This document shows positions 46,201 through 55,200 of a DNA stretch of 64,000 bases, one piece after another. Each line of letters begins with the position of its first letter. Position 1 is the first letter of the stretch. The notes below the pieces were generated by a model. The model was not told where the DNA came from. It made no database searches and was given only the letters and a program-made list of their open reading frames with translations. This DNA comes from Chaetoderma sp. LZ-2023a (taxonomy: Eukaryota > Mollusca > Caudofoveata > Chaetodermatida > Chaetodermatidae), in assembly GCA_034401795.1 (NCBI GenBank), contig CM067374.1, positions 92,899,398 through 92,963,397 on the forward strand, read 5' to 3'. The position numbers were made by a program, and so were the translations under genes.

Positions 46201-49200
46201 CATTACAGATTACATATACAGGGCCTAATTTATCTGGTATCACATCTCAATTTTCTGCACATATTTAGCCAGTTGCTATACATTCTGCAACATGCATAGC
46301 TGAAACTGCTATGGAAAGTTTGTACACGATTGCAATTTATCACTGAATTCCTTAAGTTCTATCATTAACCATTCCAACAACAAATTCCTGAAAAAGCAAA
46401 TTCTTTACAATGTAAAGCATATTCTGTTGAATATTTTGAAATTAGTATGACTGAAAGCAATGGCTTCCAGTTATATTAATTTCAAAATATTCAACAGTTA
46501 TCCTGTTTGTTTGCTCTGAGATAGAGATACACAGAATTTATCAGTGAAAGAGCTAATTGCTATACATCTATGCGGACAACTATACAATTTATAATTTCCA
46601 TAGCAATATATGCTATGCAAATATCAAATTCTAAATTATGCCCTGGTATATCACTTCATATCTGAGAAATGACAGGTTCTACATATGACCATCTGTCTTA
46701 AGGGGCCACCATCTTTTGACACCACCCCCCCCCCCCCCCACCAAAGGAAGGCGTTAAAGTAACATATTTGACTATATTTGTTTATATTGTACCCATATTG
46801 CACGTACTGCTTTTACAGAGTCAGTGCTCAAGGACACAAACATTAACTATGAGGATTACTCAAAGGTGGAGCTATCATCACGTTTCCAGCTTTATCACAA
46901 ATTTATTGATAGCGTGAGTAACCAAGCCTCAGTCAGTAATATTATGTCAGCGGAAGATCAATCAAGCATATCTTCACTTCATATGACGCATAGACTAATA
47001 CACCGTAAAACCGTAAACCGTTTTACATTTTACCGTAAAACCGTGTAAACCGTTTTACATTTTACCATGTAAAATGGTATAAACCTACTTTCAAAATACA
47101 ATAATTTTAAATTGATTTGAAAACGCACGCACGCACGCACGCACGCACGCACGCACGCACGCACGCACGCACGCACGCACGCACGCACGCACGCACGCAC
47201 GCACGCACGCACGCACGCACGCACGCACGCACGCACGCACGCACGCACTACTACTACTCCTACTAACTACTACTACTACTACTACTACTACTACTACTAC
47301 TACTACTACTACTACTACTACTACTACTACTACTACTACTACTACTACAACTACTATTATTACTACTACTACTACTAGACATGATACTAATACTGATGTA
47401 GACAAGAATTATTTTTTTTTTCTATAATAATCTTTAAGATTAGCTCTATATTGTGTTATTGCAGACTGACGAGGTCGAAATTATTTTACGTGCGAAGACA
47501 AAAAGCTGGGTGGCGTTGGGCTGGCGACCAAATAGTAAGTCGCAAATAAGAAAACTGAATCATTGAACCATATAGGCCGGTCAATGATCTGCATTATTAC
47601 CATTCACACATACGATTCACTACATGTATGGCGTTGGTAGAGGCTGTGAATCACCCTATCAACATCTTATAGCAATGTACAATGAACAAATCCAAGTATT
47701 TCACAGATTTTAGTTTTTGAATTTGTGATTAAATCCACAATTAATAACAATATATCGTTGCAACGTTCTGGGTTTGTTGATAATAGACCCCAAAAATATC
47801 AATGTGGATCCTCACAAATGGCCCCTCTGTATAGACCGTTCCAGTTTTCGCTATGCCCCGCCCATCTTTATCTAAGCTCCACCCAAATCTCGTTCGTGTT
47901 GGGATCGATCGATCTCTGAATTCCCTGACTATCAATTTCCAGAAAACTATACAGGCAAGCTGTTGAATATTTTGAAACTAACTTCAAATTAGTTTCAAAA
48001 TATTCAACAGAATGTTTATTAAATGGTAAACACATACAATTCGTACAACGTGTCGGACTATTAAGCTTTAAAGATGGACTATTTCGAGTCATTCATGACG
48101 CCATGATTATGACGTCATCCTACACGCCAAATTAGTTTCAAAAAATTCAACAGAATGTTTATTAAATGGTAAACACATACAATTCATACAACGTGTCGGA
48201 CTATTAAGCGTTAAAGATGGACTATATCGAGTCATTCACAACGCCATGATTATGACGTCATCCTACACGTCACGTAGTTGATTAGGACGTCATATGACGA
48301 CATATGATAGATTGATAACCTTAGAAAAGTCCATTATTCATAACTATCGCTTCGTAGTAGACTAATCTTGTGCATGGTATGCAAGATTTAATAAAATACT
48401 TTTCCTATTCTACATCCATATACATGGATCAACGAACATTTATGTCTACCTAAGATAGACATGTTCTCGTTATTAGATCTCTTGTTGCCAGATTTGTGGT
48501 GAATCGTGGTAAGAACTGAATCAACGAACCTTTCTAGTTTTAGCTATGCCCCGCCCACCTCTAGCTTAGCTCCACCCACACTTCGTCGTGTTGGGAGTGA
48601 TCGATCCCCGAATGCCCTGACTATAAATTTCCTGAAAGCAATACAGGTAAGCTGTTGAATATTTTGTAACTAATCTGTCTGGGTGTTGTTGCTGCCTATG
48701 GCAGCAACAGCGGCCAGTGAAATTATTTTCAAAATAATCAACAGAATATTTATTAAATAGTAAATACATACAATTCGTACAACAACGCATAGTCCCTCTT
48801 CAATTATGCTTTGGTGACGTACTTATCTACGCCATTCATAACGTCATAATGACGTCATTGATTGCGATGCCATTTTACAGGACACGCAGTTGATTATGAC
48901 GTCATATGATGGATGGATAAAGTGGAAAGGTCCGTTGATTATATTGGTGAAATCATAGAGACAACTATATAATTAATTATCCACAATGTCCTTGTTAGCA
49001 GCATGTTCTTGACTAACAAAAGTATATGATCTCTATCATAATCATGAATGTGGTGAATGTATTCTTTCAAACATGAGATTTGTTTTCATGTTATTGTATG
49101 TCTTCTCACATTCTTCCTTCCATCCATCCTAATTTAGCATATTTTCTATGGAGTAAGGATAGTGGAGTTACTATATTTGCAAAAGCTTTTTCAAATCTTA

Positions 49201-52200: not shown

Positions 52201-55200
52201 AAATATGCTCAATGCGAGCGCACCATTACTAAGTCAGACATCATCACCATCTATAGCGCCGCCATCAAGCCCATCCACATCTGCGGCCTCCACACCAAGG
52301 CCGCTGCCATCAATAATATCGACACCGATCCCATCGACTGCTACAGCATCGACACAACGATCATCAACATCTACAACACCGATACCAATGGTACCAACTT
52401 CTGCAACATCGACACCAATCCCACGAACTTCTACAACAGCGACACCCAGCCCACAGACTTCTACAACGTCGACACCAAGCCCACCAACTTCTGCACGGTC
52501 AACACCAAGCCAACCAACAACTGCAGCAGTAATATCAAGATCTGCAACGTCAACATCAAGCACATCAACTTCTACAGCATCGACACAAAGATCATCAACA
52601 TTGCCATCGTCCACATCAACGCCGTCAGCTTCTACTCCATCGACAACATTCAGCTCAACATCCACAACATCGACACAAAGACCATCCACAACGTCGACAT
52701 CAACACAGTCAGCATCTACAGATTCGGCACAAAACCCACCAACGGCATCATCACCACCCACCTCGCGACCAACAACATCGGGATCAAGCCAGTCACGCTT
52801 TACAACATCGACAACAAGTACATCAACATCTACGACCTCCACATCAACCCCATCATCAACAACTTCCACACCAAGCACGTCATCATCGACAACCTCCACA
52901 CCAAGCACGTCATCATCGACAACCTCCACACCAAGCACGTCATCATCGACAACATCCACACCAAGCACGTCGTCATCGACAACCTCCACACCAAGCACGT
53001 CATCATCGACAACATCCACACCAAGCACGTCATCATCGACAACCTCCACACCAAGCACGTCATCATCGACAACATCCACACCAAGCACGTCGTCATCGAC
53101 AACATCCACACCAAGCACGTCTTCATCGACGCCAAGCGCCTCAACATCTAGATCCACACAACAACCTGCTATCAGTCCAGACCATATATCAGGTAAACAA
53201 CGACGACGACGACTATAATTATAATAAGTGATCATGTATACTGTATATTTCGAAACAAAAACAAAATTACCTCATATATTGATATTCACTAATAACCATT
53301 TTAACGCGAATGCCCCAAACTCCAAAATATTTGAAGATTTTATAAAATTTCGTTGACTATTTTGAAACTAATTTGACTGGGAGTTGTTGGCAGCAACCTA
53401 CCTATATGGTGGTTTTGAAATTGAGATTTTAGGATGTCAGCATTCACAGGGTGAATATTTTACTCATTATGACCCAGCGAGACTGAAAGTGTAAACTTTA
53501 TCTTTATTATGTGCCTAGGCCTATATGCATATGACGTTTGTTCGTCTGTGAATGCTATGGTAACTCAAGGATGTACGTAATCTGAATTTGCCGAATCCCA
53601 CCCCCTTTACACTAACTCTTTAGTTTAGTCCTTAATCACACATCATGTTTTCGACCAATGGACCTTTCCAGTTTATCCATCCATCATATAGCGTCATAAT
53701 CAACTACGTGACATGTGGGATGACGTCATAATCAATGACGTCATGAATGACGTAGATAAGTACGTCACGAACGCTTAATTGAAGATGTACGGCGTTATTA
53801 TACGAATTGTATGTCTTTACTATTTAATAAATAGTATGTTGAATATTTTGAAACTAACTTGACTATGCATCCAGTCAAATTAGTTTCAAAATATTCAACA
53901 GCTTACCTGTATAGTTTTCTGGAAATTGATAGTCAGGGAGTTCAGGGATCTATCGATCCCAACACGGGCGAAGCGTGGGTGAAGCTTAGCTAGAGATGGG
54001 CGGCGAATAGGTAAAACTGGAATGGTCCATCGCATCAGTGGTTCAGGAGAAGTCGTTTACGTGATAACTATAGGTCAACAAAGATAACAAATCGACCAAT
54101 CAGGTTCGCTTTTACCGAAACAAGTTTAATTAGGTAGCTTTCATCTAGGGTCATCAACATATTTACGTTTCCCCCGTAGACGGCCTACATGGCATGGACT
54201 GCACAGACATGGTAATTGGAATGGCATATGGTGATCTCAGTCGAGTAGCTGACTATTTCTCCCTTGATAGATCAACACCACAAATGGACGAGTTTTTCGG
54301 TGGCTCGCAGAGTCTGACGGGCGCACTAGGATTTGAGGATGGTGAAGACACCGTGATTATGTTTCGGAGGAAGGTAACAGGTATGTGACGGTTGAATAGT
54401 TTTATATATATATATATATATTCCAGACATCATAAAGAATTAGTTATTTCTGGTCTGTAATTATGTGTTTAACCCCTCTTGTGACAAAAGCGCTCAAAAT
54501 ACTACTTGATATCAATTAAACATTTTGATGGTCATTATTTTTTAAGATATTTTAATTTTAGGCCTACCACTGAATTTTTTTGTCGCCGGCTTGACCATTA
54601 AAGTGGTAATGGTAAAGAAAATTAAACTTTTACTTAGCCAGTGTTTATCTACAGGCCGAGAGAAGAGTATTTTTTTTAAATTTACCACTAGAATGACTGG
54701 CTCGGTTACCGAGCCAGTCATTCTAGTGGTAAATATTTAAAAATACTCTTCTCTAGGCCTTTCAAATAGCCATGTCTGAAGAGCATTGTAAAGTTATTTT
54801 TGGTCAGTTTTGACCATTAAATGGTTAGTTAAAGTGACACAATGGGAGTTAACTGTGTTTAAATCTTGAATTTTACATTTATTCTTTGTCAACTCATATG
54901 CAAGTTGTAATGTATTGCAGCCTACGACCATACTGATCACAGTTTTGATACCGTAGATCAACACGTAATCTGGGCCATTGGGCAGAGACAAGATGACGTC
55001 AATGACTTCTATAAAAATGACGTTCTTCAGTTTCATGGAGGAGACGGTCAGACAGGAATGCGGATAATGACGTTCGGCAGTAAGTAATACGGGGATCCAT
55101 TTCTAGCTAAGCTCCGCCCATTTCTAGCTAAGCTCCGCCCACTCTGTAGGTAAATTTATCCATTGTCCGTATGGGGAAAGAGCGTTTGAGACGGGGTCCG

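Follow-up and report, generated by a model that had tools for sequence, protein, structure and literature searches.

A mucin-like exon splits a DOMON domain in a caudofoveate mollusc gene and is better described as a lengthened loop exon

Mucin PTS domains consist of long Ser/Thr/Pro tandem repeats held in one exon, and it is uncommon for a folded domain to accommodate several hundred additional residues in one of its core loops. Among described systems, a clade of LPMO proteins with DOMON and EGF domains is in print (Voshol et al. 2019, PMC6950343), and in CDH-type and CYBDOM DOMONs the heme ligands are Met and His (PMC10691727). Here we analysed a gene within a 64,000-nucleotide stretch of the Chaetoderma sp. 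LZ-2023a genome (hereafter the window), comparing it with two sister genes, C11 and C12. Joining the 12 predicted exons yields a reading frame without a stop (850 residues); each of the 11 introns has GT-AG ends, and the phases agree throughout. The gene seems to encode an animal cell-surface protein, laid out as follows (window coordinates, with the basis of each assignment).

28066..28234, + strand: exon 1, a signal peptide as judged by eye, followed by HIVLTHPPARRFALDY..., where the LPMO-like domain starts; open chain and phase
28795..28874, + strand: exon 2, LPMO-like domain, ...VEWKSTYKYLQ against ...VTWHMTYPH in C12; chain and C12 comparison
31556..31635, + strand: exon 3, LPMO-like domain; phase chain
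39046..39191, + strand: exon 4, end of the LPMO-like domain, ...CALRISYRHFEW...FRSCADIRIV; phase and splice-site scan
43938..44042, + strand: exon 5, first EGF-like module with four cysteines, phase 1-1; phase chain and resembling exons in C11 and C12
45088..45210, + strand: exon 6, second EGF-like module, phase 1-1; Pfam match and chain
46819..46913, + strand: exon 7, start of the DOMON; chain
47465..47534, + strand: exon 8, DOMON strand ending WVALGWRPN, phase 0 to 1; chain and Pfam
52014..53192, + strand: exon 9, loop exon NLSSDCKS... followed by the Ser/Thr/Pro tract, 393 codons, phase 1-1; chain and splice sites
52859..53128, + strand: repeat array in exon 9, nine near-identical 30-bp units (TTSTPSTSSS)
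54180..54380, + strand: exon 10, DOMON resumes with GLHGMDCTDMVIG, Met688 and Cys690; chain and Pfam
54921..55079, + strand: exon 11, end of the DOMON, conserved His788 (FHGGDGQTG); chain and paralogue comparison
60810..60952, + strand: exon 12, transmembrane helix and basic start of the cytoplasmic tail (by eye), the gene continuing beyond; phase chain

The N-terminal domain is LPMO-like, weakly scored. The sequence of the window gene fell below the LPMO cut-offs, with 15.3 bits of the 75 required for NF043005 and no LPMO-type Pfam model; the only Pfam match of exons 1-4 was an Ig-type model (E 0.18). The C12 sequence and a C12/C11 mix also remained under the cut-offs, with 31.1 and 29.6 bits of 75 for NF043005, 18.7 and 20.2 of 27 for PF20238, and 16 and 18.2 of 23 for LPMO_10. 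By eye a His follows the signal peptide, and the C12 counterpart of exon 1 reads MKIYIFLVLNCACCQLAFG-HIRITWPPARKYAFD...; the second brace-like His position is Tyr in the window gene (TYKY) and His in C12 (TYPH). Sister-gene searches gave no convincing match to exon 3 in C11 or C12, and stretches resembling exon 4 were found in C12 (E 0.012) and C11 (E 8e-4). The PDB match of the window gene's domain was a fimbrial fusion (3f85, E 0.0085), which lends no support to the LPMO reading; a search with the C12/C11 mix returned 5aa7 (E 0.47), listed as a chitinase, which we take to be an LPMO. Downstream of this domain, exon 6 exceeded the Pfam cut-offs for EGF_2 (PF07974, 29 bits against 22.1) and EGF (PF00008, 25.3 bits against 21.5). 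At the other end of the protein, a scan for transmembrane helices behind exon 11 of the sister genes turned up two candidates in C11, neither of them assigned, and no candidate in C12.

The DOMON assignment was made with Pfam PF03351 (cut-off 32.7 bits). Exons 7-10 without exon 9 scored 46.9 bits in a single stretch, and exons 7, 8, 10 and 11 joined scored 62.3 bits over model positions 3-124, above the cut-off for membership. When exon 9 was included, exons 7-10 scored 25.7 bits, under the cut-off and in two stretches; skipping exon 9 thus leaves the DOMON intact and scoring better. PDB sequence searches with the DOMON found no DOMON, returning either nothing or an S-layer protein at E 1.1. 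The sequence-only reading had proposed that a single 1179-bp phase 1-1 exon interrupts the domain between exon 8 and exon 10, with a profile match broken at residues 290/683. The 12-exon chain and Pfam agree on this interruption, the proposed break fits the position of exon 9 in that chain (residues 291-682), and it is confirmed that exon 9 splits a DOMON domain.

Exon 9 is bounded by TGCTTTTAATTTCAG upstream and CAG|GTAAAC downstream. Its 392 whole codons include 135 Ser, 109 Thr and 48 Pro (62% Ser+Thr, 12% Pro), which bears out its earlier description as mostly Ser/Thr/Pro, and all 293 of its 100-residue segments have the composition of a mucin-type PTS domain, for which 40% S+T and 5% P in 100 residues are the lower limits. 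Exon 9 carries N-glycosylation sequons at residues 290, 318, 334 and 356. The first 317 bp are single-copy. Among the 30-bp units of the array, two of 30 columns vary, both at third codon positions; with the C11 repeats, where six of eight variable columns are third positions, the pooled bias is significant (Fisher p 0.0011), the window array by itself being non-significant (p 0.10). The diverged repeats from 52318 show no synonymous excess in the coding frame, with 27 synonymous to 109 non-synonymous codon differences, against 33:103 and 23:115 in the other frames.

An open frame by itself was dropped as proof of exon 9, because the same intron contains a simple (CCCT)n tract that is likewise open, for 349 codons; exon 9 is also open over long distances in other frames (332 and 232 codons on the + strand, 345 on the - strand). 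A scan of the window for open phase 1-1 AG..GT stretches of at least 300 nt, using simple splice-site thresholds, indicated that exon 9 is more than a chance open stretch. The + strand contained four (exon 9, two candidates nested within it and one near 9 kb) and the - strand one, near 24 kb. It is very unlikely that exon 9 is instead an intronic repeat tract, open by chance between splice-like flanks. The open (CCCT)n tract and the missing synonymous excess in the diverged repeats would suit such a tract, but both ends of exon 9 combine the right phases with fitting sites, a combination found in no other stretch of at least 900 nt in the window at the thresholds used, and the two sister genes have homologous exons at the same site.

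In both sister genes found, the intron at this place contains a phase 1-1 exon, 300 bp (100 codons) long in C11 and 114 bp (38 codons) long in C12. The three loop exons begin alike, with SLTKTCQD and SLTTECRD in the sisters and NLSSDCKS in the window gene (common L-[ST]-x-x-C). The likeness of the first eight residues has a shuffle p of about 0.0007, and equally good 8-mers were found at none of 265 other positions in exon 9 and none of 5229 in 46915-54179. Beyond this shared start the loops diverge into Ser/Thr/Pro in the window gene, EPEGSTA repeats in C11 and a short, acidic sequence in C12. The C11 and C12 loops are acidic in composition (S+T 24% and 16%, D+E 27% and 22%), and the mucin-like content is specific to the window copy rather than a general property of the loop. 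Between C11 and C12, with approximate exon bounds, exon 9 is 81.6% alike, its flanking introns 76.6% and 78.7%, and exons 7, 8, 10 and 11 are 92, 89, 86 and 83% alike; exon 9 thus lies slightly above the introns and a little below the other DOMON exons, so the constraint on it is weak. In one protein search of the genome all six matches listed lay in the three paralogues, and in a second 10 of the 11 listed did, the other being on C8 (E 4.2) and containing a stop; these counts are lower bounds. In bacterial and archaeal contigs, none of 54 pattern matches was confirmed.

The clean product obtained on skipping had suggested that exon 9 was newly inserted into an old intron, an idea rejected because the sisters have their own exon there. 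Since they share site, phase and start and then differ, an ancestral loop exon appears to have been lengthened by repeats. The earlier term, an exon inserted into a DOMON loop, is better replaced by a lengthened native loop exon. The accompanying suggestion that SDCKSL is native loop sequence from which the tract grew is supported by the place, phase and similar start of the exon in both sisters. Whether loop length varies had been posed as a check on orthologues; among the paralogues it does, with 393, 100 and 38 codons.

The same exons bear on whether exon 9 is an alternative cassette, skipped in transcripts that make the working DOMON and included in others whose product bears the mucin tract and has a DOMON that is changed or no longer works. 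Inclusion or skipping would be frame-neutral because the phases are symmetric; the lengths of the three loop exons (1179, 300 and 114 bp) all divide by three, each exon is phase 1-1, and the window gene joined without exon 9 stays open and is scored as a complete DOMON. Against this, the loop exon is kept in all three paralogues with its common start, and skipping would leave Cys690 without a likely partner. We regard the cassette as possible but doubtful.

Cys295 of exon 9, which is conserved, and Cys690 of exon 10 are the only two cysteines of the window DOMON. A disulfide between them is uncertain, because the mature extracellular chain has an odd number of cysteines (15, that is, 18 minus those at 25, 825 and 835) and exon 10 of the sisters has a second one. 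Exon 9 ends 5-6 residues before Met688, which resembles the heme-ligand Met of DOMONs; Met688 and His788 are invariant in the three paralogues. The sequence HGMDCTD fits the published SXDXXMGXD motif (PMC10691727) inexactly, and the tentative heme-ligand assignment is by motif likeness. Where the tract begins, exon 9 also contains a furin-like RSKR (residues 308-311) with D as the next residue; the 850-residue chain has no other R-x-[KR]-R. Its use would give a mature DOMON made of an N-terminal chain and a membrane-bound chain beginning with the mucin tract; a four-residue motif is weak evidence, however, and the motif is missing from exon 9 as translated in C11 and C12, so we consider cleavage quite unlikely.

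We favour, with some confidence, a model in which the product is a type I membrane protein composed of a signal peptide, an LPMO-like domain, two EGF modules, a DOMON and a transmembrane helix. A separate, symmetric phase 1-1 exon, already present in the ancestor of the three paralogues found, would encode the loop between the WVALGWRP and MDCTDMVIG strands. Since this exon does not affect the frame and its middle is little constrained, tandem repeats could alter loop length and composition freely, giving 38 mostly acidic residues in C12, 100 residues with EPEGSTA repeats in C11 and 393 Ser/Thr/Pro-rich residues in the window gene. The loop ends would be pinned, perhaps by a Cys295-Cys690 disulfide, and the tract between them would be disordered and, in the window copy, O-glycosylated. 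As the loop adjoins the predicted heme ligand Met688, the tract may work like a shield or spacer tethered about the DOMON's ligand face, regulating access by partners or proteases. A bolder version, which we hold to be rather improbable, is that the loop at the predicted heme-ligand Met is a dedicated, length-evolvable exon forming a disulfide-pinned lasso whose interior can become a tandem-repeat polymer. Copies of the gene, and perhaps individual animals, would then carry a glycan or acidic shield that varies in size by hundreds of residues and covers an electron-transfer face next to the LPMO-like domain; differences between individuals are suggested by the nine near-identical 30-bp units, which point to length polymorphism.

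The locus offers a loop exon that all three copies of the gene apparently retain although nearly all of its content has changed, and a case for studying tandem-repeat growth within a domain as permitted by a symmetric exon. Its lengths of 38, 100 and 393 residues form a natural series for the effects of loop length and glycosylation on function beside a possible redox site. Within the same genome, the C7 DOMON, which resembles the MOXD1/DBH type, shows the same motif (GYVGLGLTSSRGTMAGADMMIGW), but its loop is a few residues long and is read in one open stretch without a stop, needing no intron. As in mucin PTS domains, the long Ser/Thr/Pro repeats of the window gene lie in one exon; unlike them, the tract sits inside the loop of a folded domain, and no mucin accessory domain was seen in the 12 exons. 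Among the open-licence PMC papers listed by our searches, judged by titles and the beginnings of abstracts, none dealt with a mucin-like or repeat-bearing DOMON loop. The coral DOMON type I membrane protein B5 (PMC3204972), likened here by description rather than sequence, also combines a DOMON with a C-terminal transmembrane helix, but the available account of it describes neither the loop nor an LPMO-like domain. In CYBDOM and CDH-type heme DOMONs, a Met of the loop region and a His further on occupy positions that apparently correspond to those in the window gene; CYBDOM proteins differ in having a cytochrome b561 domain, which was not seen in the 12 exons, and the available text describes no long loop exon and a motif that the window gene matches inexactly (PMC10691727). 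The excerpted account of the LPMO clade of Voshol et al. (PMC6950343) mentions no loop exon or mucin-like tract, yet, judged by its predicted domains, the architecture of the window gene appears close to the one published there, with an LPMO-like domain, EGF modules and a DOMON.

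Exon 9 (52014-53192, + strand) comprises 1179 bp in phase 1-1, and its product opens NLSSDCKSLSHINALSNSRSKRDITL before continuing as a Ser/Thr/Pro tract (135 Ser, 109 Thr and 48 Pro among 392 whole codons). Exons 7-10 matched the DOMON model at 46.9 bits when exon 9 was omitted, and at 25.7 bits in two stretches when it was included; in the latter case the best stretch restarts at Gly687, one residue ahead of Met688 (numbered along the 12-exon spliced chain). Exons 7, 8, 10 and 11 together scored 62.3 bits over model positions 3-124 of 124. The proposal from the sequence-only reading, that a mucin-like exon splits a DOMON domain, is thus borne out.

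The gene lies on the + strand of the window (C16:92899398-92963397) in a genome assembly of 2.44 Gb and 2753 contigs. Its 12 exons give a stop-free spliced translation of 850 residues, with GT-AG boundaries at all 11 introns and matching phases at every junction. Exon 4 was located by a scan for a phase-compatible exon, and it resembles stretches in contigs C12 (E 0.012) and C11 (E 8e-4). Exon 12, the last one located, finishes in phase 0 ahead of a donor, so the gene extends further. The predicted domain order is signal peptide, LPMO-like domain, two EGF modules, DOMON and transmembrane helix, the signal peptide and helix having been assigned by eye. Introns of the gene hold two retroelement-like stretches (40115-43095 and 56812-60250) with reverse-transcriptase-like frames, judged by eye from translations and sequence. 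A short element with TTGAATATTTTGAAACTAATTTGACTGG-like sequence is frequent, often in inverted pairs (e.g. 47985-48269 and 53820-54020), and by eye looks like a non-autonomous transposon family. Elsewhere in the assembly, a 4.76-Mb contig (C18) carries two COX1 matches within long open frames of 690 and 708 aa; it looks like a bacterial chromosome.

Splice sites fit at both ends of exon 9. A scan of the whole window for exon-like phase 1-1 stretches of at least 300 nt returned four on the + strand (exon 9 itself, two candidates inside it and one near 9 kb) and one on the - strand; raising the minimum to 900 nt left exon 9 and a single stretch nested in it. Within exon 9, both variable columns of a nine-unit 30-bp array fall at the third codon position, as do six of eight in the C11 array, a bias with p 0.0011 for the two arrays pooled and 0.10 for the window array alone. 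Seven older repeat units from 52318 differ by 27 synonymous and 109 non-synonymous codon changes, against 33:103 and 23:115 in the other frames, so the coding frame is no better. This result does not help the case for exon 9 and counts against it, in a test that is weak for older units because first-position changes in Ser/Thr/Pro/Ala codons often stay within that set. The intron ahead of exon 9 contains a (CCCT)n tract (50315-51364) that is open for 349 codons, a caution against taking low-complexity open frames for exons.

Two genome protein searches, whose match counts are lower bounds, gave convincing matches in three genes only: the window gene and its sister genes on C11 (minus strand) and C12. 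The first returned at least six matches, six of six within these genes; the second returned at least 11, with 10 of the 11 listed in these genes and the remaining one having an E of 4.2 and a stop. Each sister also has a phase 1-1 exon (300 bp in C11, 114 bp in C12), with in-frame junctions on both sides, in the intron that separates its equivalents of exons 8 and 10. Split codon included, the C11 product begins SLTKTCQDFPIKLSASGTGEPEGEAEGESTGEPEGSTAEPERSTAEPEG and the C12 product reads SLTTECRDFPIEQTGSGAGEPFTAEPEGSIDEAAAGLK. Their first eight residues resemble NLSSDCKS of the window copy beyond chance (shuffle p about 0.0007); none of 265 other 8-mers of exon 9 scored as well against the sisters' start, nor did any of 5229 read in three frames across 46915-54179, a region in which exons 8 and 9 are included. 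Past these residues, nothing common to window exon 9 and the sister loop exons was noticed. A loop exon was therefore probably already carried by the gene ancestral to all three, and repeats apparently grew separately in two of the copies. Ser plus Thr make up 62% of the loop exon in the window, 24% in C11 and 16% in C12, and Asp plus Glu 2%, 27% and 22%; judged from these translations, mucin-like content is specific to the window copy among the three paralogues. Most of the earlier interpretation stands, and the paralogue comparison adds to it a probably ancestral loop exon and the limitation of mucin-like content to one copy. Between C11 and C12 the loop exon (81.6%) is only a little more conserved than its introns (76.6 and 78.7%), so the exon evolves fast.

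Downstream of each sister gene there are DOMON exons of another type (C12:179177395-179181315 and C11:10813772-10817026); that of C12 ends near the same loop, by eye apparently in a different phase. An additional C11 DOMON (10839904-10841801) lies between an LPMO-like exon (10860771) and EGF exons and may be part of the C11 sister gene or a gene inside it, which leaves the extent of the C11 gene uncertain.

The window-copy DOMON has exactly two cysteines, 295 (exon 9) and 690 (exon 10). The sisters retain both, a pattern suggesting that a disulfide pins the loop. Two cautions apply: the sisters' exon 10 has an additional cysteine, and the mature extracellular part of the window protein has an odd number, 15. 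A furin-like RSKR occurs at residues 308-311, at the start of the tract inside the DOMON loop; neither sister's exon 9 translation contains it.

We favor, with somewhat better than even confidence, the explanation that an ancestral loop exon was lengthened by repeats. Flanking phase-1 introns would make the exon frame-neutral, and a pinned, presumably disordered loop interior would tolerate repeat growth. The long, putatively O-glycosylated tract beside the predicted heme site could then serve as a shield or spacer, and cleavage at RSKR, which the sisters lack, could nick the domain. Confidence was held at this level because the heme-ligand assignment is by motif likeness only.

A DOMON on contig C7 is in one piece, GYVGLGLTSSRGTMAGADMMIGW, whereas the matching stretch of the window gene runs SWVALGWRPN, exon 9, DGLHGMDCTDMVIGM. 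In CDH-type and CYBDOM DOMONs, heme is coordinated by a Met together with a later His, as described in PMC10691727. Met688 may correspond to that Met by motif likeness, an assignment that is not secure; the motif SXDXXMGXD from that paper fits the window DOMON inexactly. Met688 and His788 are invariant across the three paralogues. The DOMON of DBH is without such ligands according to its structure paper (PMC4846438), and heme binding is thus not a requirement for a DOMON.

The same gene encodes the N-terminal domain listed here.

LPMO-like domain of the window gene
28066-28234, 28795-28874, 31556-31635 and 39046-39191, + strand: exons 1-4, N-terminal LPMO-like domain

In the window gene and C12 this domain begins with His after an apparent signal peptide. 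The C12 sequence minus exon 3 matched an LPMO-like NCBIfam model (2.1e-7), a BIM1-like model (0.0025) and LPMO_10 (0.021), and a C12/C11 mix gave 5.9e-7, 8.8e-4 and 0.0042, all below curated cut-offs. The window copy reached just 0.015 with the NCBIfam model; its N-terminal domain matched no LPMO-type model in Pfam, and its sole PDB match was a fimbrial fusion (E 0.0085). At the position of C12's second brace-like His (TYPH), the window copy has Tyr (TYKY). Voshol et al. 2019 (PMC6950343) describe an early branch of LPMOs that combines DOMON, EGF and LPMO_10 domains, and the architecture is thus already known in outline.
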